Source: Tamaricihabitans halophyticus
GTDB lineage: Bacteria > Actinomycetota > Actinomycetes > Mycobacteriales > Pseudonocardiaceae
Reading direction: 5' to 3'
NCBI RefSeq assembly: GCF_004340875.1
Contig: NZ_SLXQ01000004.1
Span: 62,001 to 126,000 of the forward strand
DNA: 64,000 nucleotides
Shown here: piece after piece, positions 1 to 12,475 of the stretch
Position numbering within the stretch: position 1 is the first letter of the stretch
Layout of the letters: each line of letters begins with the position of its first letter
Position numbers and translations under genes: made by a program
Notes under the pieces: model-generated
The model's input: the letters and a program-made list of their open reading frames with translations, nothing else
Database searches by the model: none
Told to the model about the DNA's origin: nothing

Positions 1-393
1 CTCGTAGCGGATGTCCTCGCGGGTTGGTCGCTCGGTGCGCTCGACGAGCGCAAGCGCGGTCAGCATCATTCCTGGGGTACAGAAACCACATTGAGCCGCG
101 CCGGCCTGGAGAAAGCAGTCCTGGATGGGGTGTGACTCCGCGTCGGCGGCCGGCAGCCCGGTGAGCGTGGTGATCTCCCGCCCTTCTACCTGGACCGCGA
201 AAAGCAGGCAGGCGCTTACCGGTTCGCCATCCAGCAGGATCGTGCAGGTACCACAGACGCCTTCCCCGCAGCCGTAACGAACGTCGGCCATGCCGAGGTC
301 GTCGTGCAGCGCGTCAAGCAGCAACCGGTTGGTGCCTACCCACAACTCGTGCGTACGACCGTTCACCCGTAGCTGGACCTGTGTTTTCGTCAT
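1..393 (-). CDS. 2Fe-2S subunit of a CoxS/xanthine dehydrogenase-type molybdenum hydroxylase (partial)
   Basis: The gene starts at ATG 393-391 and runs off the left edge, leaving 131 residues. The plant-ferredoxin cluster is visible as C42, C47, C50 and C62 (YGCGEGVCGTC, then AC). The first half of the second 2Fe-2S cluster is C102/C105 in QCGFCTPGM. Family knowledge: this small subunit passes electrons from the molybdopterin site to the FAD subunit in the cytoplasm. The start overlaps the stop of the FAD-subunit gene as ATGA, so the two are translationally coupled. The molybdopterin subunit is not in the window and probably lies just to the left. The substrate cannot be read from this subunit. 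Confidence 0.93.
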   Translation of the reverse strand, partial: MTKTQVQLRVNGRTHELWVGTNRLLLDALHDDLGMADVRYGCGEGVCGTCTILLDGEPVSACLLFAVQVEGREITTLTGLPAADAESHPIQDCFLQAGAAQCGFCTPGMMLTALALVERTERPTREDIRYE

Positions 394-1280
394 ACGCCAG
401 CTCCCTTGCTCTCGGCGCGTCCGCGCTCGATCGCCTTCCCGAGCGCGCGATAGGTGAGGACCTCGGTGAGGCGCCGCCGATAGTCAGCGCTGGCGTGCAC
501 ATCGGACTCGGGCGACACGGTGGCGGCGGCTGCTGCCCCAACAGCCCGGAGCTCGTCATCGCGCCCGGTCCCGCCGACGGCCGCCGACAGGAGCTCATCG
601 GAGAGGATCAACGGCCGGTCAGCGACGCCCCCGACCACGACGCGCAGTGCCGTGACCGTGTGCGCATCGGAGCTCAGCGTGGCGGTCGCCGCCACTTCGA
701 CCGTGGCGAAGTCGGAGTAGCGGCGAACGGTTTCCAGAAAGGCCCAACCTTGGCCGTGCTTGCGGATCGGTAACCTGATCTCGGTCAGCAACTCGTCCTC
801 GGCGAGATCCGTGGTGAGATAGCTGCGCAGAAACCGTTCGGCATCGATCACTCGTTGGCCCCGCGGGGAGTGGGCAATCAATTGACCGTCAAGCGCAAGC
901 ACCATGCACGGGATCTCTCCACTGGGATCCGCATGGCACATGCTGCCACCAACGGTTCCTCGTGCACGTACCCGGACGTTGCCGATCTGCGCGGCCCCTT
1001 CGGCAAGTATCGGACAATGCTCACGAACTAATGGTGAACGCAGCAGATCCTGGTGCCGCGTCAGCGCAGAGAGCACCAGTCGATCGTCGGCCACTCGCGG
1101 CTCTACGGCGCCGATCGGGTTGATATCGATGAGTCCAGCCGGCTGCACCAGACGTAGATTCAACATCGGCACCAGGCTCTGTCCACCGGCGAGAATCTTG
1201 CCGTCCTCACCCCAGATGCGGTGCAGCTCGACGGCTTCCTCCCAGGAATCGGCGAGCTGGTACTCGAACGCGCCGGTCAT
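390..1280 (-). CDS. FAD-binding (medium) subunit of a CoxM/xanthine dehydrogenase-type molybdenum hydroxylase
   Basis: The protein is 296 residues, normal for CoxM/CutM subunits. The FAD pyrophosphate-binding stretch AGGQSLVPML sits near residue 32. The second FAD motif, RARGTVGGSMCHADPSGE, follows near residue 105, and a C-terminal CO_deh_flav_C-like domain ends the protein. It should carry electrons from the 2Fe-2S subunit to an acceptor. Its start overlaps the CoA-transferase B stop by four bases (ATGA) and its stop overlaps the next ATG, so it is an internal cistron of a tightly coupled operon. The pairing with a CoA-transferase suggests oxidation of an organic acid or N-heterocycle rather than CO; that is inference. 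Confidence 0.93.
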   Translation of the reverse strand: MTGAFEYQLADSWEEAVELHRIWGEDGKILAGGQSLVPMLNLRLVQPAGLIDINPIGAVEPRVADDRLVLSALTRHQDLLRSPLVREHCPILAEGAAQIGNVRVRARGTVGGSMCHADPSGEIPCMVLALDGQLIAHSPRGQRVIDAERFLRSYLTTDLAEDELLTEIRLPIRKHGQGWAFLETVRRYSDFATVEVAATATLSSDAHTVTALRVVVGGVADRPLILSDELLSAAVGGTGRDDELRAVGAAAAATVSPESDVHASADYRRRLTEVLTYRALGKAIERGRAESKGAGV

Positions 1281-2065
1281 CGCGACACCGTCGACACCTG
1301 CGTTGCCGGCTCACGATCAGCCGACTCACCAGTCAGTTCACGCAGCATTGCTAGCTCGGTCGCACTCGGCGCGGGCAACTGTGCCAGTTCGTCGTGTACC
1401 AGCAAGTCGAATCCGGTCGCGGTACGTACCTCGTCAAGCGTCACGTCCGGTTGTAGGGCGCGTACCCGCATCCGTTTGCTGGTTGGCTCGAAATCGAGCA
1501 GGGCCAGATCGGTGACGACATGGCTCGGCCCGCCGTAGACCAGTCCCGCCTCGACTCGAGCCGCGCCACCGGTGAGGTACCCGGGGCTCGTGACGAAGTC
1601 GACGCGTTCGACAAACCTGCGTGGCTCGTGGGTGGTGACGACGAGAGTCTCGTTGCACAACGAAATGATGTCGTTGGCGCCACCGCTTCCCGGTAGCCGA
1701 ACCGTCGGCCTGGTTGGCTCACCAATAACGCTGGTATTGATGTTGCCGTACGGGTCGATCTGGGCGACACCGAGGAATCCGTAGTCGAAGAACCCGCGCT
1801 GCGCGAGCAGGAAGATATCGGTGATCCCGGTGAACATCGCCGCGCCGGCCGCGGCGCGAAGTTCGTTCGTGGAACTGGGCAACATCCCAGGATGGGGGGT
1901 GGTACCAATGATCCCGCCCTCGAGAATAATCGTCAGATTTGGCGCACGATGGCGTTTCGCCAAGGTCGAGGCGACCAGCGGGAGGCCAATTCCCGCGAAC
2001 ACCACGCGATCATCCCGCAGCAGCCTGCTTGCCGCCACGGTCATCAGTTCGTCCTTCGCGTTCAT
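1277..2065 (-). CDS. CoA-transferase family, subunit B
   Basis: This 262-residue protein resembles the beta subunit of glutaconate/3-oxoacid CoA-transferases. The segment ILEGGIIGTTP places E49 where these enzymes carry their catalytic glutamate. It also has the glycine-rich RLPGSGGANDI segment. Related pairs (IpdAB) act as ring-opening hydrolases in steroid breakdown rather than as transferases, so the exact reaction is open. It overlaps both neighbours by four bases (ATGA) and must pair with the subunit A gene directly upstream. The context with a molybdenum hydroxylase and an LLM oxidoreductase suggests a catabolic step on a CoA ester. Confidence 0.88.
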   Translation of the reverse strand: MNAKDELMTVAASRLLRDDRVVFAGIGLPLVASTLAKRHRAPNLTIILEGGIIGTTPHPGMLPSSTNELRAAAGAAMFTGITDIFLLAQRGFFDYGFLGVAQIDPYGNINTSVIGEPTRPTVRLPGSGGANDIISLCNETLVVTTHEPRRFVERVDFVTSPGYLTGGAARVEAGLVYGGPSHVVTDLALLDFEPTSKRMRVRALQPDVTLDEVRTATGFDLLVHDELAQLPAPSATELAMLRELTGESADREPATQVSTVSR

Positions 2066-3021
2066 CGCGGCATCAACTCCTGCGCACGGAGCTGCTGGGC
2101 ACGCAGCCGTTCGCTACCGATATCCGCGAGAAACCCACTGAAGTCGGCGTGCTTGCCAACGTGCCGCTCGACGTACTCGCGTGCCGCGGCGACCCCGGTT
2201 TCCCGCACGGCGCGCATGTACTCGTCCACGTGTTCACTGTCTACTTCGTACTTGCCGTAACATTCGTGCGGATACGCGCCGTACGGCACTTCCACGACCG
2301 CGTCCACGGCGAAGTGTGGGATCACCGTGCTGCCCGGATCCCGGCGAATCTCTTCGGTTGTGACAATCTCCTCGGCACTGAGCACGACCCGTCGCGACGC
2401 CCGTGCCATCTCCGCGTCCATCAACGGGTAGCCATCGATCTGCGCGTTTCCGTACTGGTCGGCGCGGTGTACGTGGATCAATGCCACGTCCGGATTGAGG
2501 CTCGGGATCGCGAGCAACCGTTGTCCGGTGAACGGACAGACGACTGGTGCCGTTTCGGTGTTGTTCGCCAAGTCGGATCCGAGCATGCTTACCGTGGGCA
2601 GGAACGGGACTCCCATCGCACCCGCCTGATAGCGCATCCCCATACCGAGGTGGCTCCATTCCTCGAAGCGCGCCTGGCCGTTTTCCACACAGTGCCGGAG
2701 AATTCGTGCGAGGCCCCAGCCATGCCCGATCCCGACCCAGCTGGTCACGACCGTATCGGCCATGCCGGTGCCGAGGAACAGTTCGACCTCGTAGCAGCTC
2801 AATGGCCGGGAAAGAGTCAGTCCCGTGCGCTCCTGCCGAAGGATCTCGAACAGCAGAGCCATGGGTGTACGCGCGTAGTTTGTCCCACCTACCGCGATAT
2901 GGTCACCGGAGCGCACCAGTTCGATTGCCTCGGCCGCACTCACCCGTTTGTCGGTCACCGGACGGACCGTCGACTCCAGTTCGGCGCGCGCGGTACGGAT
3001 CGGCGATGGGGCGGTCATCAT
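2062..3021 (-). CDS. CoA-transferase family, subunit A
   Basis: The protein is 319 residues with the family I CoA-transferase alpha fold. A glycine-rich N-terminal stretch (SGDHIAVGGTNYARTP) is followed by SLNPDVALIHVHRADQYGN, a segment typical of glutaconate CoA-transferase A and IpdA-like proteins. It lies immediately upstream of subunit B with a four-base overlap, and downstream of the LLM oxidoreductase with the same kind of overlap. The length is normal and no lesion was seen. Substrate unknown; probably a dicarboxylic or keto acid made by the associated oxidoreductases. Confidence 0.88.
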   Translation of the reverse strand: MMTAPSPIRTARAELESTVRPVTDKRVSAAEAIELVRSGDHIAVGGTNYARTPMALLFEILRQERTGLTLSRPLSCYEVELFLGTGMADTVVTSWVGIGHGWGLARILRHCVENGQARFEEWSHLGMGMRYQAGAMGVPFLPTVSMLGSDLANNTETAPVVCPFTGQRLLAIPSLNPDVALIHVHRADQYGNAQIDGYPLMDAEMARASRRVVLSAEEIVTTEEIRRDPGSTVIPHFAVDAVVEVPYGAYPHECYGKYEVDSEHVDEYMRAVRETGVAAAREYVERHVGKHADFSGFLADIGSERLRAQQLRAQELMPR

Positions 3022-3980
3022 GCGCCGCCAACCCGCGCCGGAGCAACCTCCAACAGCGGTCGCACCTGCTCGGTGAATCGCTCGAGCTGCTCGAGGTCAT
3101 AGCGGTATGGCACGAGCGCGATATGCCGTGTACCCGCGTTGATGTGCGCGGCCAGTTGTTCCGCGCACTGTTCTGGCGTCCCTCGGATGGCACTTTCTGG
3201 CGTGGCATCGCTCCACTCGGGATTGTCGAAGTGCTCTGCGAGGAACGGGCCGACCTTCCTGGACGCGGATTCGAAGGAGGAGTCGATGCACAGCGGTAGC
3301 TGAGCCACGTTGGTCAGCGTGTCTGGATCCCTGCCGGCCTCCGCGGCGAAATCGCGGATCTTCGCCCAGGAGCGCGCGAACGCCTCCGCCGTATAGAAGT
3401 ACGTCAGCCAGCCGTCCCCCAGCGTCGCCACCCTGCGCAGCACTCGATCGACGTATCCACCGATCAGCACGCGGGGCCGTGGTCGTGGCTTCGGCAGCAT
3501 CCGCACCCGCCGGAACGAAAGGTCCTCCCACTCCCCTGTCACCTCGTCATCGCCCCACAGGCGGTAGCACACGTCGAGATTGCGTTCGAACCGCTTGCCA
3601 CGTCCCTTGAACGGGCTTCCGGTAGCCGCGAACTCGCGCTCGTACCAGCCAGCCGCGACCCCGAGGCACAGCCGCCCACCGGACGCGGACTGCAAGGTGG
3701 CCGCCGTCTTGGCGAGTAACGCCGGATCCCGGATCGGCAGTACCAGTACTCCGGTACCCAGCGTCATCGTGCTGGTATGACTGGCCAGCGCGGTGAGCGT
3801 GGTGAGGGCTTCAAAACACGGGAACGGCTGCTTGGAACCAAGAAACAAATGGTCCCATGCCCACAGTGAGGTGAACCCGAGCTCCTCCGCCCGAGTTGCG
3901 TAGTTGATCAGCCGGCCCATATCCGGGCTGGCTGACGCCGAGGTGAAGTTCTCGATAGCGACGCCGTACTCGACAGTCAT
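3018..3980 (-). CDS. LLM-class flavin (F420- or FMN-dependent) oxidoreductase
   Basis: This 320-residue protein has the luciferase-like TIM-barrel signature: EELGFTSLWAWDHLF near residue 33, LGTGVLVLPIRDP near residue 75, and RLCLGVAAGWYEREFAATG near residue 105. The RVLIGGYVDRVLRRVATLGDGW segment is typical of F420-dependent TIGR03619-like members. It is the first gene of the five-gene leftward operon and overlaps CoA-transferase A by four bases. Its start faces pxpA across a 189-base region with two inverted-repeat sites. Cofactor choice between F420 and FMN cannot be settled by reading. Confidence 0.9.
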   Translation of the reverse strand: MTVEYGVAIENFTSASASPDMGRLINYATRAEELGFTSLWAWDHLFLGSKQPFPCFEALTTLTALASHTSTMTLGTGVLVLPIRDPALLAKTAATLQSASGGRLCLGVAAGWYEREFAATGSPFKGRGKRFERNLDVCYRLWGDDEVTGEWEDLSFRRVRMLPKPRPRPRVLIGGYVDRVLRRVATLGDGWLTYFYTAEAFARSWAKIRDFAAEAGRDPDTLTNVAQLPLCIDSSFESASRKVGPFLAEHFDNPEWSDATPESAIRGTPEQCAEQLAAHINAGTRHIALVPYRYDLEQLERFTEQVRPLLEVAPARVGGA

Positions 3981-4015
3981 GAGCGCTCCAGTTGGGCGGT
4001 TTGGTGGCTGCGATG

Positions 4016-4072
4016 TTGTCCGACATTAGGGCCAGCCGGTCCGGCAGTCAGTGGCAAAAGTTGTCTAACAAC
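4016..4072. promoter_or_regulatory. Two TTGT-N3-ACAW operator-like sites between divergent operons
   Basis: Site 1 at 4016-4026 reads TTGTCCGACAT. Site 2 at 4060-4072 reads GTTGTCTAACAAC, a perfect 5-bp inverted repeat around CTA. Both match the general TNGT-N3-ACNA half-site pattern bound by FadR-subfamily GntR regulators. They sit in the only intergenic space serving both the LLM/CoA-transferase/molybdenum-hydroxylase operon and pxpABC, so one regulator probably controls both. No GntR gene is adjacent inside the window. Confidence 0.5.
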
Positions 4073-4169
4073 CATTCGATGTGTAGTCACCGTTCGACAT
4101 CGACGTGTCCGCAGGTACTCGGCATGATCGGCATCCAGGCAGTACGCACTGATGAGGAGGCCGTAGCCC

Positions 4170-4949
4170 ATGACTGGTCCAGCTGAGCACGCCCCTGCGA
4201 TCGCGCTGACCACCGATATCGGCGAAGGCTTCGGGATGTGGACGATCGCGGATGACGACGCCTTGCTCGACCTTGTCACGAGCGCGAACATCGCCTGCGG
4301 GTTTCACGCCGGAGATCCGGACATCATGCGTCGTACCTGCGCGCGCGCCGCACGCAACGGCGTGGCCATCGGCGCACAGGTCAGTTACCGGGACCTGGCC
4401 GGGTTCGGTCGGCGGTACGTAGCCGTGCAACCGGACACGCTCACCAATGACCTGATCTACCAGATCGGCGCGCTGGATGGTTTCGCTCGTATCGCCGGGA
4501 CCTCGGTAACCTACGTACGCGCGCACGGCGCGCTGTACAACGTCGCCGCAACGGACACCGCGCACGCAGCCGCGCTGGTCGAGGCGGTGGCCAAGTACGA
4601 TCCGAAGCTGCCGTTGCTCTGCCAGGTCGGCACCGAGACCTGGCGGCTTGCCGCCGAGGCAGGGCTGACCACGATCGCCGAGGCGTTCGTGGATCGCGCT
4701 TATACCTCCGGTGGACTGCTCGTTCCACGGACCGAAGCCAACGCGATGGTGACCGACCCGGACGCCGCGGCGAAACGGGCGGTACAGATGGTTTTCGCCG
4801 GCGAGCTGACCGCGATCACCGGAGAAACCATCGCGGTGCAAGCCCAGTCGCTCCTCGTGCACTCGGACACCTCCGGTGCGGTGGAAATCGCCCGGGCTAC
4901 CCGAGACGCGCTGGAATCGGCCGGCGCACGGTTGGTACCGCAGGCCTGA
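4170..4949 (+). CDS. pxpA: 5-oxoprolinase subunit A, LamB/YcsF family
   Basis: This 259-residue protein has the LamB/YcsF hallmarks: the N-terminal DIGEGFGMW, then ANIACGFHAGDP near residue 44, and the AIGAQVSYRDLAGFGRR segment. Normally this family reads LNEGFG and HPGYPD; QVSYRDLAGF is the equivalent. Family knowledge: PxpA with PxpB and PxpC forms an ATP-dependent 5-oxoprolinase that opens pyroglutamate to glutamate. A GAGGAGG ribosome site lies about 10 bases before the ATG. It is followed 15 bases later by pxpB. Given the neighbourhood, an alternative lactam substrate is possible. Confidence 0.92.
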   Translation: MTGPAEHAPAIALTTDIGEGFGMWTIADDDALLDLVTSANIACGFHAGDPDIMRRTCARAARNGVAIGAQVSYRDLAGFGRRYVAVQPDTLTNDLIYQIGALDGFARIAGTSVTYVRAHGALYNVAATDTAHAAALVEAVAKYDPKLPLLCQVGTETWRLAAEAGLTTIAEAFVDRAYTSGGLLVPRTEANAMVTDPDAAAKRAVQMVFAGELTAITGETIAVQAQSLLVHSDTSGAVEIARATRDALESAGARLVPQA

Positions 4950-4964
4950 TCTTGGCCAGCGGTC

Positions 4965-5582
4965 ATGCGACTACTCCGGTGCGCCGACTCCGGGCTACTC
5001 GTCGAGTTGGCGGATATCGATGCGGTACTCGCGCTCTACGACGCGCTCGTGGCGGCAACTGATCGTCCCGAATGGATCGTCGACCTGGTCCCGGCCGCAC
5101 GCACTCTACTGGTGGTGCTGGACCCGACCCGAGCCGATTTCACCGAGCTGGAACGGTTGCTCAGGAACACTCGGCCGACTCGACGGCAACCGAGCGACGT
5201 CGGCACGCTGCGTATTCCGGTGCGTTACGACGGCGCGGATCTGTCCAGCGTGGCGGAGTTGACCGGACTGACGACGGCGGAGATCGTCACCGCGCACACT
5301 GGTACTGAATGGACAGTCGCGTTCGGAGGGTTCGCACCGGGGTTCGGGTACCTGGTGAATGGCGACCCACGGCTGCGCGTCCCTCGGGCGAAAGTGCCGC
5401 GCACCAAGGTTCCCGCCGGGTCAGTCGGGCTCGCTGGCGAGTTCAGTGGGATCTACCCGCGTGAGTCGCCGGGCGGCTGGCAGCTGATCGGCCGTACGGA
5501 GCTCGAACTGTGGCGAACGGACCGACAACCACCAGCCTTGTTACGGCCCGGCGTGCGGGTGCGTTTCGAGGATGTCGGGTGA
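4965..5582 (+). CDS. pxpB: 5-oxoprolinase subunit B, KipI family
   Basis: The protein is 205 residues, the usual length for PxpB/KipI. It shows the AHSA1-like N-terminal half and the conserved cyclophilin-like motif AFGGFAPGFGYL near residue 120, followed by RVPRAKVPRTKVPAGSVGLAGEFSGIYP, split here only for description of its two halves. The PRESPGGWQLIGRT motif ends the family core. It lies between pxpA and pxpC in the standard A-B-C order. KipI itself is a kinase inhibitor in Bacillus, but the complete ABC arrangement supports the metabolic role. Confidence 0.92.
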   Translation: MRLLRCADSGLLVELADIDAVLALYDALVAATDRPEWIVDLVPAARTLLVVLDPTRADFTELERLLRNTRPTRRQPSDVGTLRIPVRYDGADLSSVAELTGLTTAEIVTAHTGTEWTVAFGGFAPGFGYLVNGDPRLRVPRAKVPRTKVPAGSVGLAGEFSGIYPRESPGGWQLIGRTELELWRTDRQPPALLRPGVRVRFEDVG

Positions 5583-5609
5583 CAGCCTTCGCGAACGGAG
5601 GACGCGGCC

Positions 5610-6476
5610 ATGTCCGAGCTCTGCATCGTCGCTACCGGCCCGCTGAGCACGGTGCAGGACCTGGGCCGTCATGGGCTTGCGGAGATCGGGGTCGGCGCTT
5701 CGGGTGCCGCCGATCAGGGTTCCTTTCGGCTGGCGAACCGCCTGCTCGGTAATCCCGAATCCGCCGCGGCCATCGAGGTAACCCTTGGTGGACTTGTCGT
5801 TCGCGCACCGTGCCCGCTGACGATCGCCATCACTGGAGCGCCGTGTCCGATCATGGTGGGCAACCGCTCCGAAGCGTTGAACACGGTGTTGCGGCTGCCC
5901 GCGGAGGTACCGCTGCGGCTCGGCCAGCCTGACCACGGTCTGCGCAGCTACCTTGGCGTGCGCGGCGGAATCGATCTGCCACCGGTGCTCGGTTCGCGCT
6001 CGACCGATCTGCTGGCAGGTATCGGCCCAGCCGCGCTTCGAGCCGGCGACACAGTTCCGGTCGGACCGGCACCATCGCGATTTCCGGTGTTGGACACCGC
6101 GCCGGTCGATGGGCCCGCGGCCGGTGACCGCACCCTGCGGGTGCGGCTGGGACCACGGCACGACTGGTTCACCGAGGAGGCGATCAACTGCTTGCTGACC
6201 GCACGATACGAGGCGACCTCGGAAAGCAACCGCGTCGGCATGCGACTGGCCGGTCCACCGCTACACAGAGCCGAACCAGCCGAGCTTCCCAGTGAAGGTG
6301 CCGTAACGGGCGCGCTACAGGTACCGCCAGCCGGACTGCCTACCCTGTTTCTCGCCGATCATCCGATCACCGGCGGATACCCAGTGATCGCGGTGGTCCG
6401 TGCCGCCGACTTGGACGCCGCGGCACAGATCCGCCCCGGTACCGGGCTGCGCTTCCGACTCGACACCATCCACTGA
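5610..6476 (+). CDS. pxpC: 5-oxoprolinase subunit C, biotin-dependent carboxyltransferase/KipA family
   Basis: This 288-residue protein begins with the diagnostic LSTVQDLGRHGLAEIGVGAS. It continues with GAADQGSFRLANRLLGNPE, and has SYLGVRGGIDLPPVLGSRST near residue 113 and the C-terminal DHPITGGYPVIAVV. These match KipA/PxpC, which forms the catalytic complex with PxpB. A GGAGGA ribosome site stands about ten bases upstream of the ATG at 5610. It is the last gene of pxpABC. A short inverted repeat follows at 6519-6534 before the convergent HAD gene. Confidence 0.93.
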   Translation: MSELCIVATGPLSTVQDLGRHGLAEIGVGASGAADQGSFRLANRLLGNPESAAAIEVTLGGLVVRAPCPLTIAITGAPCPIMVGNRSEALNTVLRLPAEVPLRLGQPDHGLRSYLGVRGGIDLPPVLGSRSTDLLAGIGPAALRAGDTVPVGPAPSRFPVLDTAPVDGPAAGDRTLRVRLGPRHDWFTEEAINCLLTARYEATSESNRVGMRLAGPPLHRAEPAELPSEGAVTGALQVPPAGLPTLFLADHPITGGYPVIAVVRAADLDAAAQIRPGTGLRFRLDTIH

Positions 6477-7103: not shown

Positions 7104-9347
<2,244 letters not shown>

Positions 9348-9356
9348 TCAGGGTAA

Positions 9357-9788
9357 TCAGGAACTGCGTACCGTTGCACAATCAGGGCACACGCCCCAGT
9401 AGATGACCTCAGCTTCCTCCACCGCGAAACCATGATCGTCAGCCGCGGTAAGGCAGGGCGCCTCGCCCACGGCGCAGTCGACGTCGGCGATCGCCCCACA
9501 CGACCGGCACACGAGATGGTGGTGGTTGTCGCCAGTGCGCGATTCGTACCGCGCTACGGAACCGTGCGGCTGGATACGCCGAAGGAGTCCGGCGGTGGTC
9601 AGCGCACGGAGGACGTCGTAGACGGCCTGGTGGGACACCTCACCGAGACACGCGCGTACGGCACTGATGACGGACTCCGTATCCGCGTGCGGACGATCAT
9701 GGACAGCGGCGAGCACCGCGACACGAGGGCGCGTTACGCGTAGCGCCGCCTCGCGCAACATATGCTCAAAGTCCGAGGTCGTTGGCAC
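9357..9788 (-). CDS. furA: Fur-family repressor FurA
   Basis: This 143-residue regulator has the winged helix (RVTRPRVAVLAAVHDRPHAD, then VSHQAVYDVLRALTTAGLL), the dimerisation histidines in DNHHHLVCRSCG, and a second CPDC pair near the C-terminus, so both structural cysteine pairs are intact. It starts at GTG 9788. Directly downstream is katG, so it is the peroxide-sensing FurA type rather than iron-uptake Fur. A promoter/operator lies at 9806-9834 and leaves only a very short leader. Confidence 0.95.
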   Translation of the reverse strand: MPTTSDFEHMLREAALRVTRPRVAVLAAVHDRPHADTESVISAVRACLGEVSHQAVYDVLRALTTAGLLRRIQPHGSVARYESRTGDNHHHLVCRSCGAIADVDCAVGEAPCLTAADDHGFAVEEAEVIYWGVCPDCATVRSS

Positions 9789-9805
9789 GGGCGCCAGTCT
9801 GCCGG

Positions 9806-9834
9806 ATTATCTGGAATGATTCAAGAATAAGTCA
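9806..9834 (-). promoter_or_regulatory. furA-katG promoter with FurA-box-like spacer
   Basis: On the minus strand a -35-like TGACTT (9834-9829) and a -10-like GATAAT (9811-9806) are separated by exactly 17 bases. The spacer and -10 contain TTGAATCATTCCAGATAA, which closely resembles the TTGA/ATTCCAGA sequence described at mycobacterial furA promoters. Expected start of transcription falls within about ten bases of the GTG codon. This fits autoregulation by FurA. Confidence 0.65.
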
Positions 9835-9861
9835 CCCAGGCGGGTCGTCTCTCGAGATCAG

Positions 9862-10377
9862 CTACGGTGCCTCGGTAGCGGCCCGTTCCGGCACCGGACG
9901 GTGTAGCTGAACGGCCTCGACATCCGGGATCACTACCACCGGGCAGTCCGTATGCCGGATGCAGTACCCGCTGACCGTGCCATGTACCGCTTCAACCAGC
10001 CGGCCGACGCCGTGGTGTCCGAGAACCAGTAATGCAGCCTCCGCCGCGGCGGAGCTCAACACCTCGGGCGGCCAGCCTTCGACGAGCTCGGAGCGGAAAC
10101 TGACGTCTGGGTAAGCGCCGGAAACCTCAGCGACGGCGCCGGCCAACACCTTCTCGTTCGCGTCCCGCATCCCTTCGTACGTGCGGATTGGCGGCGGAAC
10201 AGCCGCGGTCCAGCCCGCGATCCCCGGGTCGTATCGCCAGACGGTCACGACGTGCACCGAACAACCCCGCAGTCGCGCCTCGGCTGCCGCCCAGTGCAGC
10301 GCCACCCTGCTCAGTTCGGAACCATCGACGCCAACGACGATGGCCCGCGAGTCGCTACCGCCCTGTTGCGCGTTCAT
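9862..10377 (-). CDS. Universal stress protein, single domain
   Basis: The 171-residue protein has one USP domain. It begins IVVGVDGSELSRVALHWAA and ends with the ATP-binding pattern G-2x-G-9x-G-T in GHHGVGRLVEAVHGTVS, followed by CPVVVIPD. Family members bind ATP and are linked to dormancy or hypoxia responses. It faces a second, two-domain USP gene across about 200 bases that contain a DosR-like box. It is followed by the furA promoter region. Confidence 0.93.
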   Translation of the reverse strand: MNAQQGGSDSRAIVVGVDGSELSRVALHWAAAEARLRGCSVHVVTVWRYDPGIAGWTAAVPPPIRTYEGMRDANEKVLAGAVAEVSGAYPDVSFRSELVEGWPPEVLSSAAAEAALLVLGHHGVGRLVEAVHGTVSGYCIRHTDCPVVVIPDVEAVQLHRPVPERAATEAP

Positions 10378-10488
10378 CCCGGTCGCCTCCAGTCATGGTT
10401 GGTCGCGCGGCGCGTAGCCACGCCTTCGCCGAAGCAAGCGTCCTCCGGTCCGGTTCAGCCTGGCCACGACGTGAAGTCCTTCGCGCGC

Positions 10489-10502
10489 GAGCCGGAAGTC
10501 CC
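10489..10502 (-). promoter_or_regulatory. DosR/DevR-like box between divergent USP genes
   Basis: The minus strand reads GGGACTTCCGGCTC, one mismatch from the DosR half-palindrome pattern GGGACTT-NN-G-N-CCC. A second partial copy, GGACTTC, lies at about 10473-10479 in the same orientation. The box is about 80 bases before the tandem USP gene and about 110 before the other USP gene. The downstream gene set (USPs and an Acg-type nitroreductase) is what DosR controls in mycobacteria. Confidence 0.45.
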
Positions 10503-10582
10503 TGCTTATCGGTGACCAATGCCCGCTGCACTAGCACCTCACTCGCCATAACGTCGAGGTGAATGAGACCCCATGAACGCCT

Positions 10583-11476
10583 TTGGAGCGCGCCATGCAC
10601 ACGAAACGCCTACCGATCACCGTCGGAATTGGCGGGGCTACGGATCAGACATCCCTGCTGCACTGGGTCGCCCAGGAAGCCGCCCGGCTGGCAGCACCCG
10701 TTCGCCTGGCGCGTGCGGTAGTTGTTCCCGCCGTCTACTCGGACCTACCGCTTCCCAAGGAAGTTGTGGACGACCTGATCCAGGAGGGCGAGCGTGCCGT
10801 CCAGGCAGCAGCCGATGAGCTGGCACAGATCAGCGCCGACCTGGAAATCGACACCCTGGTCCAGAGCGCACATCCGGCAGCGCTGCTGATCGAGCTGTCC
10901 GCGGAGTCGCGCCTGATCGCGATTGGCGCGGGTGGCCGAGCACGCGGTCCGTTTACCGACTCGGTAGCGGTCGCCCTAGCCGCACGCGCGCAGTGTCCGG
11001 TGGCCGTAGTCCGGTCGAACGATCAGACGGCAATTTCCGCTGAGGGCACCGTTGTACTCGGTATGGACGGCTCGACGAGCGCCCAGGACACGATAGAGGC
11101 CGCCTTCACGGAAGCCTCGTTGCGCGGTGCGCAGCTCGTCGCCGTGCACGCCTGGAACGACGCCGAGGTCAGCTGGGATGTCGTCGAGCGGTTTTACCCA
11201 GGCTCGGAATCGCTCGCTGACGTCGCGGAACGCGCGCTCGCCGAAATGCTCGCGGGGTGGCGGGAGAAGTTTCCAGAGGTCGAGGTCCGCCGTGTGGTGG
11301 CACACGACAAACCGAAGCACCAGCTGCTGGAACTCGCGAAGACCGCCCAGCTCGTCGTGGTCGGCAGCAGAGGACGTGGCGGGTTCACCGGCCTACTGCT
11401 TGGTTCGACCAGTCAAGCGCTGATTCATCATTCACCCTGCCCGGTGCTCATCGTCCGACCGCGCGAGGAACGCTAA
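10583..11476 (+). CDS. Tandem universal stress protein
   Basis: The protein is 297 residues with two USP domains, about 1-145 and 150-297. The first ends in a degenerate GAGGRARGPFTDSVAVALA nucleotide loop. The second has an intact VVGSRGRGGFTGLLLGSTS (G-2x-G-9x-GS) and ends CPVLIVRPRE. Two-domain USPs of this size are typical of actinomycete hypoxia/dormancy regulons. The next gene, an Acg-like nitroreductase, starts nine bases after its stop, so the two are probably one transcript. Confidence 0.94.
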   Translation: MERAMHTKRLPITVGIGGATDQTSLLHWVAQEAARLAAPVRLARAVVVPAVYSDLPLPKEVVDDLIQEGERAVQAAADELAQISADLEIDTLVQSAHPAALLIELSAESRLIAIGAGGRARGPFTDSVAVALAARAQCPVAVVRSNDQTAISAEGTVVLGMDGSTSAQDTIEAAFTEASLRGAQLVAVHAWNDAEVSWDVVERFYPGSESLADVAERALAEMLAGWREKFPEVEVRRVVAHDKPKHQLLELAKTAQLVVVGSRGRGGFTGLLLGSTSQALIHHSPCPVLIVRPREER

Positions 11477-11485
11477 CCAGCCACC

Positions 11486-12475
11486 ATGGACGGGCTTACC
11501 GAAGCACAAGTGGACATCCTGCTGCGCGCGGTCAGCAATGCGCCTTCCGTGCACAACACACAACCGTGGGAAATCGATGTCACCGAGCGAACCATCGGGC
11601 TCTTCCAACGCAAGGTGGACCTGCCCAGCCATGACCCGGTCGGGCGCGATCGAATGATCTCCTGCGGTGCGGCACTCGCCAATCTGGAGCTCGCCGTCCG
11701 CCACCTCGGCTTCGACTCCAACGTGGACATACTGCCGGGATCGGCTGACCGCGATGCGATCGGTCTGGTTACCGCGGGCCGACCGCGCCCGGCTACCGAG
11801 GAGGAAGACCAGCTTTACCAAGCGATCGCGCGACGGCGTAGCTACCGGTACCAGTTCGAGCCGAAACCGGTACCGAATACTCTGGCGGCGGCGATAGCAG
11901 GCCTCGCTCGCCAGCCTGGCGTCGAGTCACACCTGCTGACCGCGCCGGCCCAGATCGCCACGCTGGCAAGCATGCTCGGCAGCGCTGCACGCGCGCTGCG
12001 CGCCGATCGGATATATCAGCGGGAGCTCACGGCCTGGCTGGCTTCGCCAAGCGAACCGGCTCCTGAACACGGCGACGGGATCCCAACCGGTGCACTGGGC
12101 AACGGTTGGCTACCCGCCGGGCTCGTACGAACGAATACCCCTATGCCCGATGACTACGTACTCGCGGAACGGATCGCCGCGGAAACACTGCTGATCGTCA
12201 CGACATCCGCGAACACGGTGGCCGACCAGGTCGCGGCCGGCCGCGTGCTGCAACGCGCTTGGCTCTCGGTGACCGCGGCTGGTATGGCGGCTTCGGTCAT
12301 CACCCAGCCACTACACCTCAGCGGTTTCCCGGAGGAACTGCGAGATCGACTGGCACTACCCGGGTTGCCGCGCGCACTGTTCAGGTTCGGTTATCCGGTA
12401 CGGGTACTTCCAGCGGTGCCACGGAAACCGTATCGTGCGTTGCTTCGCCACCATCGGCGGCTTGACGCGCGTTAA
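11486..12475 (+). CDS. Acg-family FMN-binding nitroreductase-like protein
   Basis: The protein is 329 residues with the Acg/Rv2032 signatures SNAPSVHNTQPWEIDV near residue 15, ISCGAALANLELAVRHLG near residue 56 and RRRSYRYQFEPKPVP near residue 115. A second nitroreductase-like half ends in TAAGMAASVITQPL. Family knowledge: Acg proteins hold FMN under a lid and are thought to sequester it rather than reduce nitro compounds. In mycobacteria acg belongs to the DosR dormancy regulon. The position directly after a tandem USP gene fits that here. Confidence 0.9.
   Translation: MDGLTEAQVDILLRAVSNAPSVHNTQPWEIDVTERTIGLFQRKVDLPSHDPVGRDRMISCGAALANLELAVRHLGFDSNVDILPGSADRDAIGLVTAGRPRPATEEEDQLYQAIARRRSYRYQFEPKPVPNTLAAAIAGLARQPGVESHLLTAPAQIATLASMLGSAARALRADRIYQRELTAWLASPSEPAPEHGDGIPTGALGNGWLPAGLVRTNTPMPDDYVLAERIAAETLLIVTTSANTVADQVAAGRVLQRAWLSVTAAGMAASVITQPLHLSGFPEELRDRLALPGLPRALFRFGYPVRVLPAVPRKPYRALLRHHRRLDAR

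Follow-up and report, generated by a model that had tools for sequence, protein, structure and literature searches.

The DNA analysed here, hereafter the window, is a stretch of 64,000 nucleotides from Tamaricihabitans halophyticus (contig C4, positions 62001 to 126000, of a genome of 6.39 Mb). It begins with two divergent operons, one of which encodes an LLM-class reductase, the coenzyme A (CoA)-transferase GctAB and a molybdenum hydroxylase, and the other the three proteins PxpA, PxpB and PxpC. We propose that these genes belong to one catabolic cluster for an N-heteroaromatic carboxylic acid, which would be degraded by a reductive, F420-dependent route; this reading is tentative, and we regard its chances as approaching even without quite reaching it. 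The gene content, the linkage of the genes in relatives, a PxpA clade with motifs of its own, the F420 genes of a rhizobial counterpart and the retention of catalytic residues are computed results, from which we infer the individual reactions, their order, a loop of CoA and the substrate. The genes within the window are as follows.

1 to 393, minus strand: [2Fe-2S] subunit of the molybdenum hydroxylase (PF01799 and PF00111), cut by the window edge
390 to 1280, minus strand: FAD subunit of the molybdenum hydroxylase (PF00941 and PF03450)
1277 to 2065, minus strand: GctB, beta subunit of the CoA-transferase (PF01144; 144 bits with 1poi_B)
2062 to 3021, minus strand: GctA, alpha subunit of the CoA-transferase (PF01144; 137 bits with 1poi_A)
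3018 to 3980, minus strand: LLM-class reductase, probably F420-dependent (TIGR03619, 194.9 bits, cut-off 166.9)
3981 to 4169, no strand: gap of 189 bases between the divergent operons, presumed to hold their promoters
4170 to 4949, plus strand: pxpA of the cluster type (NF003814, 327 bits, cut-off 226; motifs LTTDIGE and VRAHGALY)
4965 to 5582, plus strand: pxpB, ATPase-side subunit (TIGR00370, 136.8 bits, cut-off 145.55)
5610 to 6476, plus strand: pxpC, ATPase-side subunit (TIGR00724, 276 bits, cut-off 230.2; NF045499, 195.8 bits, cut-off 500)

PxpA, PxpB and PxpC are thus all encoded together (positions 4170 to 6476), the latter two being described as the ATPase-side subunits (PMC8453981). 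Five leftward genes and pxpABC had already been placed between positions 1 and 6476 by the initial annotation of this DNA, which also reported ATGA overlaps between the leftward genes, and indeed all four of their junctions inside the window are ATGA. The molybdopterin (Mo) subunit that it advised looking for to the left of the window is present there (780 amino acids; loci L005 and L006), as is the remainder of the [2Fe-2S] (FeS) gene, which encodes 163 amino acids when entire (L006:6902-7393). The molybdenum hydroxylase, of the xanthine oxidase family, therefore has its Mo, FAD and [2Fe-2S] subunits, and the leftward operon has the order LLM-GctA-GctB-FAD-FeS-Mo-CoxG-PALP, with a PALP of 379 amino acids (L005 and L006). 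Each of the seven junctions in this eight-gene operon is an overlap, ATGA in six cases and ATGACTGA in one; beyond the window edge the overlaps are ATGACTGA, ATGA and ATGA. PALP is followed on the same strand by a gene for a PucR-type regulator, a gap of 205 bases and a gene for an MHS-family symporter. No amidase was found among the annotated left-hand genes, where the annotation did not cover every open reading frame (ORF).

Relatives of the cluster were sought in several genome sets. Among 390 genomes of the family, 10 had a match at E≤1e-55, of which 8 (own genome included) showed at least 61% identity and two, at 40%, were excluded; a scan of genome contigs gave 12 loci at 59-71% and one at 22%, which was likewise excluded. 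Matches were present in 4 of 397 genomes of the order, none of them new, in 2 of 396 genomes of the phylum, the window's own included, and in 10 of 297 genomes from the genus to which M. brisbanense belongs. Removal of duplicates left 22 actinobacterial relatives for the tally, from which L017 and L018 (40%), L031 (22%) and distant GctA and GctB relatives (about 37-46%) were omitted. P. acaciae and S. shandongensis, both discussed below, belong to the same family as the window genome, the Pseudonocardiaceae. Given these few matches, the cluster is rare and patchy in its distribution.

The linkage of the two operons is nevertheless retained in most relatives. Cluster-type pxpA lies inside the cluster in 19 of the 22, in varying order and strand, and 16 of the 22 have pxpA, pxpB and pxpC there together. 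The LLM gene adjoins gctA in every one of the 22 relatives, and it is directly preceded on the same strand by a pxp gene in 17 of the 19 that have pxpA. The order is pxpABC-LLM-GctAB-Mo in Mycolicibacterium, Mo genes-pxpABC-LLM-GctAB in Nocardioides, and pxpA-LLM-GctAB with a divergent pxpB in P. acaciae and genome G280. In the window pxpABC is directly divergent from the LLM operon; in S. shandongensis it faces away, with npdG-like and PucR genes in between, and in genome G001 (locus L079), of the genus of S. shandongensis, it lies beside LysR and PALP genes some 9 kb from the LLM gene. The FAD, FeS and Mo genes are in the cluster in 19 of the 21 relatives that could be tested (L030 being cut short). 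PALP is part of it in 20 of the 22, including L022 with a PALP of 43% just past the locus edge, and the remaining two carry a PALP outside the cluster, at other places in the genome (51 and 48%). Within the stretches fetched around the clusters, genes for a LysR regulator (17/22), an XdhC-type maturation factor (9/22), an NCS1-type permease (8/22, three of them at 27-28% identity) and an npdG-like protein (6/22, one at 35%) were found, and three clusters (L034, L035 and L036) lie beside branched-chain/urea-type ABC importers. Separation of the two operons in relatives, which the initial annotation had regarded as an argument against a common role, is thus confined to a minority, pxpA being in the cluster in 19/22. 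The joint pathway that it had suggested is well supported by this linkage. The breakdown of an N-heterocycle through a lactam can still be put forward only conditionally, but fits better than before in view of the F420 reductase, the NCS1-type permeases near 8/22 clusters and the interchangeable ring-opening genes described below.

The PxpA proteins of these clusters differ from ordinary PxpA. In a tree of 31 rows, the 16 cluster rows, including the window, and one extra copy from P. acaciae form a single clade (support 100/97), separate from the ordinary PxpA of the same genomes; the labels 'cluster' and 'ordinary' require two changes on this tree, owing to locus L084. At that locus of P. acaciae (L084:8656-11972), which is apart from the main cluster, genes for a second cluster-type PxpA and a PxpC adjoin one for an NCS1-type permease. 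The nearest row outside the clade, on a long branch, is the second PxpA of the window genome itself (L066, contig C30), which has ordinary motifs. The second pxpABC set of this genome (contig C30, L086:8260-11975) lies behind a gene for an MHS-family symporter.

Three substitutions, N14 to T, K117 to R and P118 to A, are present in all 17 rows of the clade and in none of the 15 ordinary rows, one ordinary gene being counted twice. Four further loci carry them as well (4/4), which brings the count to 21/21 cluster-type rows versus 0/15. Accordingly, LTTD(I/V)GE and RAHGAL are found in 21/21 cluster-type proteins and LN and KPHGA in the 15/15 others, and the window protein has neither LN.D.(G/A)E nor VKPHGA(L/F)Y, the two motifs of ordinary members. 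The 17 clade rows also have L instead of C229. The ordinary motifs are also those of 2DFA, a solved PxpA homologue, whose fold is shared by the model of the window protein (pLDDT 87; Z 34.5); the matches that follow include ChbG-like and polysaccharide-deacetylase-type proteins. In this model T14 is part of the first strand and R117-A118 form the end of a strand, and the changed residues are near the invariant D16 and H119. A similar difference is seen with the pxpTABC system of C. glutamicum, whose proven PxpA reads N-S-D-L-G-E in our own translation of the printed primers, where the cluster PxpA reads T-T-D-I-G-E (PMC13274462). The two systems are alike in having three subunits of the same families, and an ATP-dependent opening of a lactam would be expected of both, but the companions in C. 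glutamicum are the NRAMP-type PxpT and the GntR-type PxpR, whereas those in the cluster are the LLM-class reductase, GctAB, the Mo hydroxylase and PALP (PMC13274462).

Most of the genomes that were searched also have an ordinary PxpA outside the cluster. In Segeticoccus (L029), the cluster PxpA is encoded about 7 kb from an ordinary pxpABC set. That set (L029:11752-17948), which is accompanied by an NRAMP-type gene, a GntR gene and a gene for D-glutamate cyclase, resembles pxpTABC of C. glutamicum. Based on the separate PxpA clade, its fixed motifs and the presence of both kinds in Segeticoccus, the cluster PxpABC is unlikely to be a plain 5-oxoprolinase and probably acts on a substrate other than 5-oxoproline. 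The clade and its changed motifs therefore speak against the label 5-oxoprolinase under which pxpABC had initially been annotated. An ordinary 5-oxoprolinase operon that stands beside an unrelated Mo-hydroxylase operon, or that merely returns glutamate, would agree with the family models, which call PxpA and PxpC members of the family, and with the scores of PxpB and PxpC, which are no different from those of ordinary copies. However, this explanation, which was already disfavoured, is very improbable given the linkage in 19/22 relatives, the separate PxpA clade, the fixed motifs and the ordinary PxpA encoded elsewhere in most genomes that were searched. It should be noted that low NCBIfam scores were also considered as a sign of divergence of PxpB and PxpC. 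This argument was dropped because ordinary copies miss the same cut-offs: that of NF045499 was reached by neither of the two ordinary PxpC copies compared, and that of TIGR00370 by only one of the two ordinary PxpB copies.

The three relatives without pxpA (L034, L035 and L092) all have a DUF6282 gene (in L034 at L034:2259-3245) and an arylmalonate-decarboxylase (AMDase)/EutA-like gene in the fetched stretches, as opposed to 0 of the 19 others, and two of these three genomes have only ordinary PxpA elsewhere. A comparison of DUF6282 with solved structures gave nothing better than E 0.27. As it occurs where PxpABC is absent, DUF6282 is a candidate ring-opening enzyme, and one ring-opening set may replace another; since different hydrolytic sets adjoin one core, these sets would do the same job.

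With respect to the LLM-class protein, the score on the F420 subfamily model TIGR03619 (194.9) exceeds the cut-off (166.9), and it is probably an F420-dependent reductase. The strongest sign of this is that its rhizobial counterpart adjoins genes for F420 biosynthesis. An LLM match at E≤1e-30 was present in 12 plasmid records, all of them from Sinorhizobium (S. meliloti and S. fredii). The operon concerned, read in S. meliloti RMO17 pSymA (L046:6974-32510) and of like order in L047, includes npdG and cofE (both annotated in strain R11), cofD, cofC, fbiC, pntA and pntB. It encodes relatives of GctA (48% identity), GctB (51%), the LLM-class reductase (43%), the Mo hydroxylase (28%) and the PALP (40%), the last scoring 515 bits on the diaminopropionate ammonia-lyase (DAL) model NF006058. 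Also encoded are a FAD subunit, an FeS subunit fused to CoxG, a binding protein, an M20 deacylase and a branched-chain/urea-type ABC importer. In place of PxpABC there are a dihydroorotase-type gene, which precedes the transporter genes, and the M20 deacylase. This set had come to attention before, as the F420, GctAB and DAL genes were tied by association to the nodule competitiveness of S. meliloti, where the portion of the study considered here names the genes without a pathway (PMC8407117). The cluster and the S. meliloti set thus have in common GctAB, the LLM-class reductase, a Mo hydroxylase with CoxG, and DAL, and they differ in that the latter brings its own F420 biosynthesis and pntAB, and has M20 and a dihydroorotase-type gene for PxpABC (PMC8407117).

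GctAB belongs to the same two-subunit fold family as glutaconate CoA-transferase (1POI) and the ring hydrolase IpdAB (6CON and 6CO6), and it is nearer to 1POI. GctA scored 137 bits with 1poi_A, 98 with 5mzw_A, a further family member, and 81 with 6con_A, which is of the IpdA type, and GctB scored 144 bits with 1poi_B versus 53 with the IpdAB type. The glutamate of GctB that we take to be catalytic, placed in the LEGG/FEGG motif by alignment with 1POI, is kept in 19/19 rows. GctAB is therefore expected to be a transferase rather than a hydrolase of the IpdAB type, a reading that was tried and set aside as the weaker match. Neither an acyl-CoA ligase nor a beta-oxidation gene is part of the cluster itself, and none was found among 30 neighbour proteins of the relatives that were put through family searches, which represent a selection of the ORFs. 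Since the glutamate-bearing CoA-transferase always adjoins the LLM gene, since the cluster lacks ligase and beta-oxidation genes, and since a thioester exposes the ring C=C bond to hydride, it can be argued that GctAB would prime the substrate with CoA.

The Mo subunit has pucD as its best NCBIfam model, at 560 bits, which is below the cut-off of 783.65, and the cut-offs of the other listed equivalogs were not reached either. Among its relatives of solved structure are 4-hydroxybenzoyl-CoA reductase (325 bits) and both halves of nicotinate dehydrogenase (3hrd A, 295 bits; 3hrd B, 198 bits). The cluster might represent a further variant of reductive purine or urate degradation ending in 2,3-diaminopropionate. 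The xanthine dehydrogenase-type Mo subunit, the DAL-type PALP and PucR would suit such a variant, and in the urate clusters of Chloroflexota YgfK is replaced by a luciferase-family F420 candidate (PMC12507026). The proven reductive route by which E. coli and C. difficile degrade uric acid is also alike in general plan, with a Mo enzyme, a reductive dearomatisation, a hydrolytic ring opening and a final DAL-type lyase that yields pyruvate (PMC12507026). However, none of the 13 cluster genes is a relative of SsnA, HyuA, YgeW, YgeY or YgfK/UacX, the cluster has instead the LLM-class reductase, the CoA-transferase and PxpABC, the pucD score is below the cut-off, and the CoA-transferase would have no role. 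We therefore consider a urate variant improbable.

The PALP passes the cut-off of the DAL model NF006058 (357.2 versus 276), but misses that of the stricter TIGR03528 (288.4 versus 532.25) and just misses that of TIGR01747 (271.5 versus 274). The window protein keeps FK, with the lysine for pyridoxal phosphate, and TDGNHG and DTSWPGY, with the two aspartates, active-site roles that we presume for these three residues. Both aspartates are kept in 17 of 20 rows, among which two genes occur twice. A lyase of this type removes a group from the carbon beside the amino acid carbon, which argues for a ring with two nitrogens.

The same enzyme could alternatively act first, releasing pyruvate, ammonia and a free heterocycle from a mimosine- or willardiine-like beta-(N-heterocyclyl)alanine, and the other enzymes would then degrade the heterocycle. 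The DAL type of the PALP, the rhizobia among the carriers, and the branched-chain/urea-type ABC importers at L034, L035 and L036 and in the rhizobial operon are compatible with this order of events. Nevertheless, it appears quite unlikely, as a ring set free in this way would not have to carry a carboxylate, which leaves the CoA-transferase unexplained, and the NCS1-type permeases (8/22) would better suit a free base or ring.

A ring with one nitrogen, as in nicotinate-, picolinate- or pyrrole-2-carboxylate-like acids, was also considered. The Mo hydroxylase and F420H2 would then produce a six- or five-membered lactam (in the pyrrole-2-carboxylate case 5-oxoproline itself), PxpABC would open it to a dicarboxylic amino acid, and GctAB would activate the dicarboxylate for beta-oxidation. 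This is in line with the match of the Mo subunit to nicotinate dehydrogenase and of GctAB to glutaconate CoA-transferase, and with Azorhizobium, which reduces 6-hydroxynicotinate and proceeds via glutarate (PMC3511419). As in the reductive nicotinate pathway of E. barkeri and Azorhizobium, a hydroxylated N-ring would be reduced before it is opened, but that pathway, including the known rhizobial nicotinate cluster, has a different reductase, and its products pass through glutarate (PMC3511419). Relatives of 6-hydroxynicotinate reductase and enamidase are absent, all 13 cluster genes belonging to other families. We know of no PxpABC or DAL in the nicotinate pathway. Moreover, a DAL-type PALP that keeps its lysine and both aspartates has no clear place in a one-nitrogen route, nor did the 30 selected neighbour proteins include a beta-oxidation gene. 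A one-nitrogen substrate is therefore unlikely.

Returning to a two-nitrogen ring, the proposed route would start with uptake by the MHS symporter in the window genome, and, in some relatives, by NCS1 or ABC importers encoded nearby. The Mo hydroxylase would oxygenate a ring carbon beside a nitrogen to give a ring lactam or cyclic urea, with CoxG possibly serving its maturation or electron transfer. GctAB would then transfer CoA to the ring carboxylate, and the LLM-class reductase with F420H2 would add hydride to the ring C=C bond, made electrophilic through the thioester, after which GctAB would recover the CoA for the next substrate molecule. The specialised PxpABC would open the saturated ring at the expense of ATP, and the DAL-type PALP would convert the resulting amino acid to a 2-oxo acid. 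The same logic underlies the proven reductive urate route, whose Chloroflexota clusters, with their luciferase-family F420 candidate, also speak for this proposal (PMC12507026). Among possible substrates, an imidazole-4-carboxylate-type acid fits best because it uses every enzyme of the set. It would be converted via a 2-oxo-imidazole-carboxylate to 2-oxoimidazolidine-4-carboxylate, then to 2,3-diaminopropionate and CO2, and finally to pyruvate and two NH3. 2-Oxoimidazolidine-4-carboxylate is 5-oxoproline with NH for one CH2, and its hydrolysis would give a carbamate and thereby 2,3-diaminopropionate. This particular substrate, with 2,3-diaminopropionate and pyruvate as the end of the route, is nonetheless doubtful.

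Several observations weigh against the reductive F420-dependent route as a whole or against some of its steps. The reactions of the pathway are deduced from sequence, and we are not aware of any strong natural source of imidazole-4-carboxylate. By itself, the LLM model (pLDDT 77) does not separate F420 from FMN enzymes, since both match at similar scores in a fold search. Two acyl-CoA ligase family genes of the window genome (L005:6174-7829 and 4504-5979), which are not known to be part of the cluster, lie 5-8 kb past the MHS gene, and the CoA loop is not forced, because a nearby ligase could supply CoA. The P. acaciae cluster has pxpA and pxpB without pxpC, and those of L029 and L037 have pxpA only, without pxpB or pxpC in the cluster. 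In addition, the L029 and L037 genomes lack any Mo match of more than 40% at E≤1e-100; since they keep PxpA-LLM-GctAB all the same, the Mo hydroxylation step is not essential to the core. The PALP of G001 is without the first aspartate, and one of the two PALPs of S. shandongensis is without both. The dihydroorotase-type gene and M20 of the rhizobial operon would be more in keeping with a cyclic ureide than with a cyclic urea. Lastly, no operator common to the relatives was found.

Taken more broadly, LLM-GctA-GctB may constitute an undescribed portable dearomatising module of actinobacteria and rhizobial symbiotic plasmids, in which a heteroaromatic acid is primed with CoA, reduced by hydride from F420H2 and released with recycling of the CoA. 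The module would be combined with exchangeable ring-opening sets (neofunctionalised PxpABC, DUF6282 with the AMDase-like protein, or dihydroorotase with M20) and a DAL-type lyase, and in the window it would lead from an imidazole-4-carboxylate-type acid to pyruvate via 2-oxoimidazolidine-4-carboxylate and 2,3-diaminopropionate. We consider this wider proposal possible, but with reservations. Searches of the open-licence literature on the joint pathway, its parts, the rival explanations and DUF6282 retrieved no description of the joint pathway. If the F420-dependent reading of the cluster is right, the family labelled 5-oxoprolinase holds a clade with another substrate that can be recognised by two short motifs, F420 gains a catabolic role in the opening of N-heterocycles, and the F420 operon that a published association study linked to nodule competitiveness of S. 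meliloti would be given a chemical rationale (PMC8407117).

The gap of 189 bases is common to both operons in the window, as the 'one control region' of the initial annotation had implied, but this does not extend to an operator common to the relatives. The palindrome TTGTCTAACAA, at about positions 4061-4071 of the window, was absent from all 19 other loci scanned, and no shared inverted repeat with perfect arms of at least 6 was found in 13 further stretches between cluster genes. A shared operator for the cluster was therefore dropped as a candidate.

The distant GctA and GctB relatives sit in other surroundings, namely a 3-oxoadipate cluster of Azospirillum, a Streptomyces plasmid and haloarchaeal plasmids. 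On a Halomicrococcus plasmid (L090:5621-10255), genes for an M20 deacylase, a GctAB-related CoA-transferase pair and an aminotransferase lie in a row. To the right of pxpABC in the window (positions 7104-12475), ORFs that by eye resemble a KatG catalase-peroxidase, a Fur-type protein, two universal stress proteins and a nitroreductase are present.

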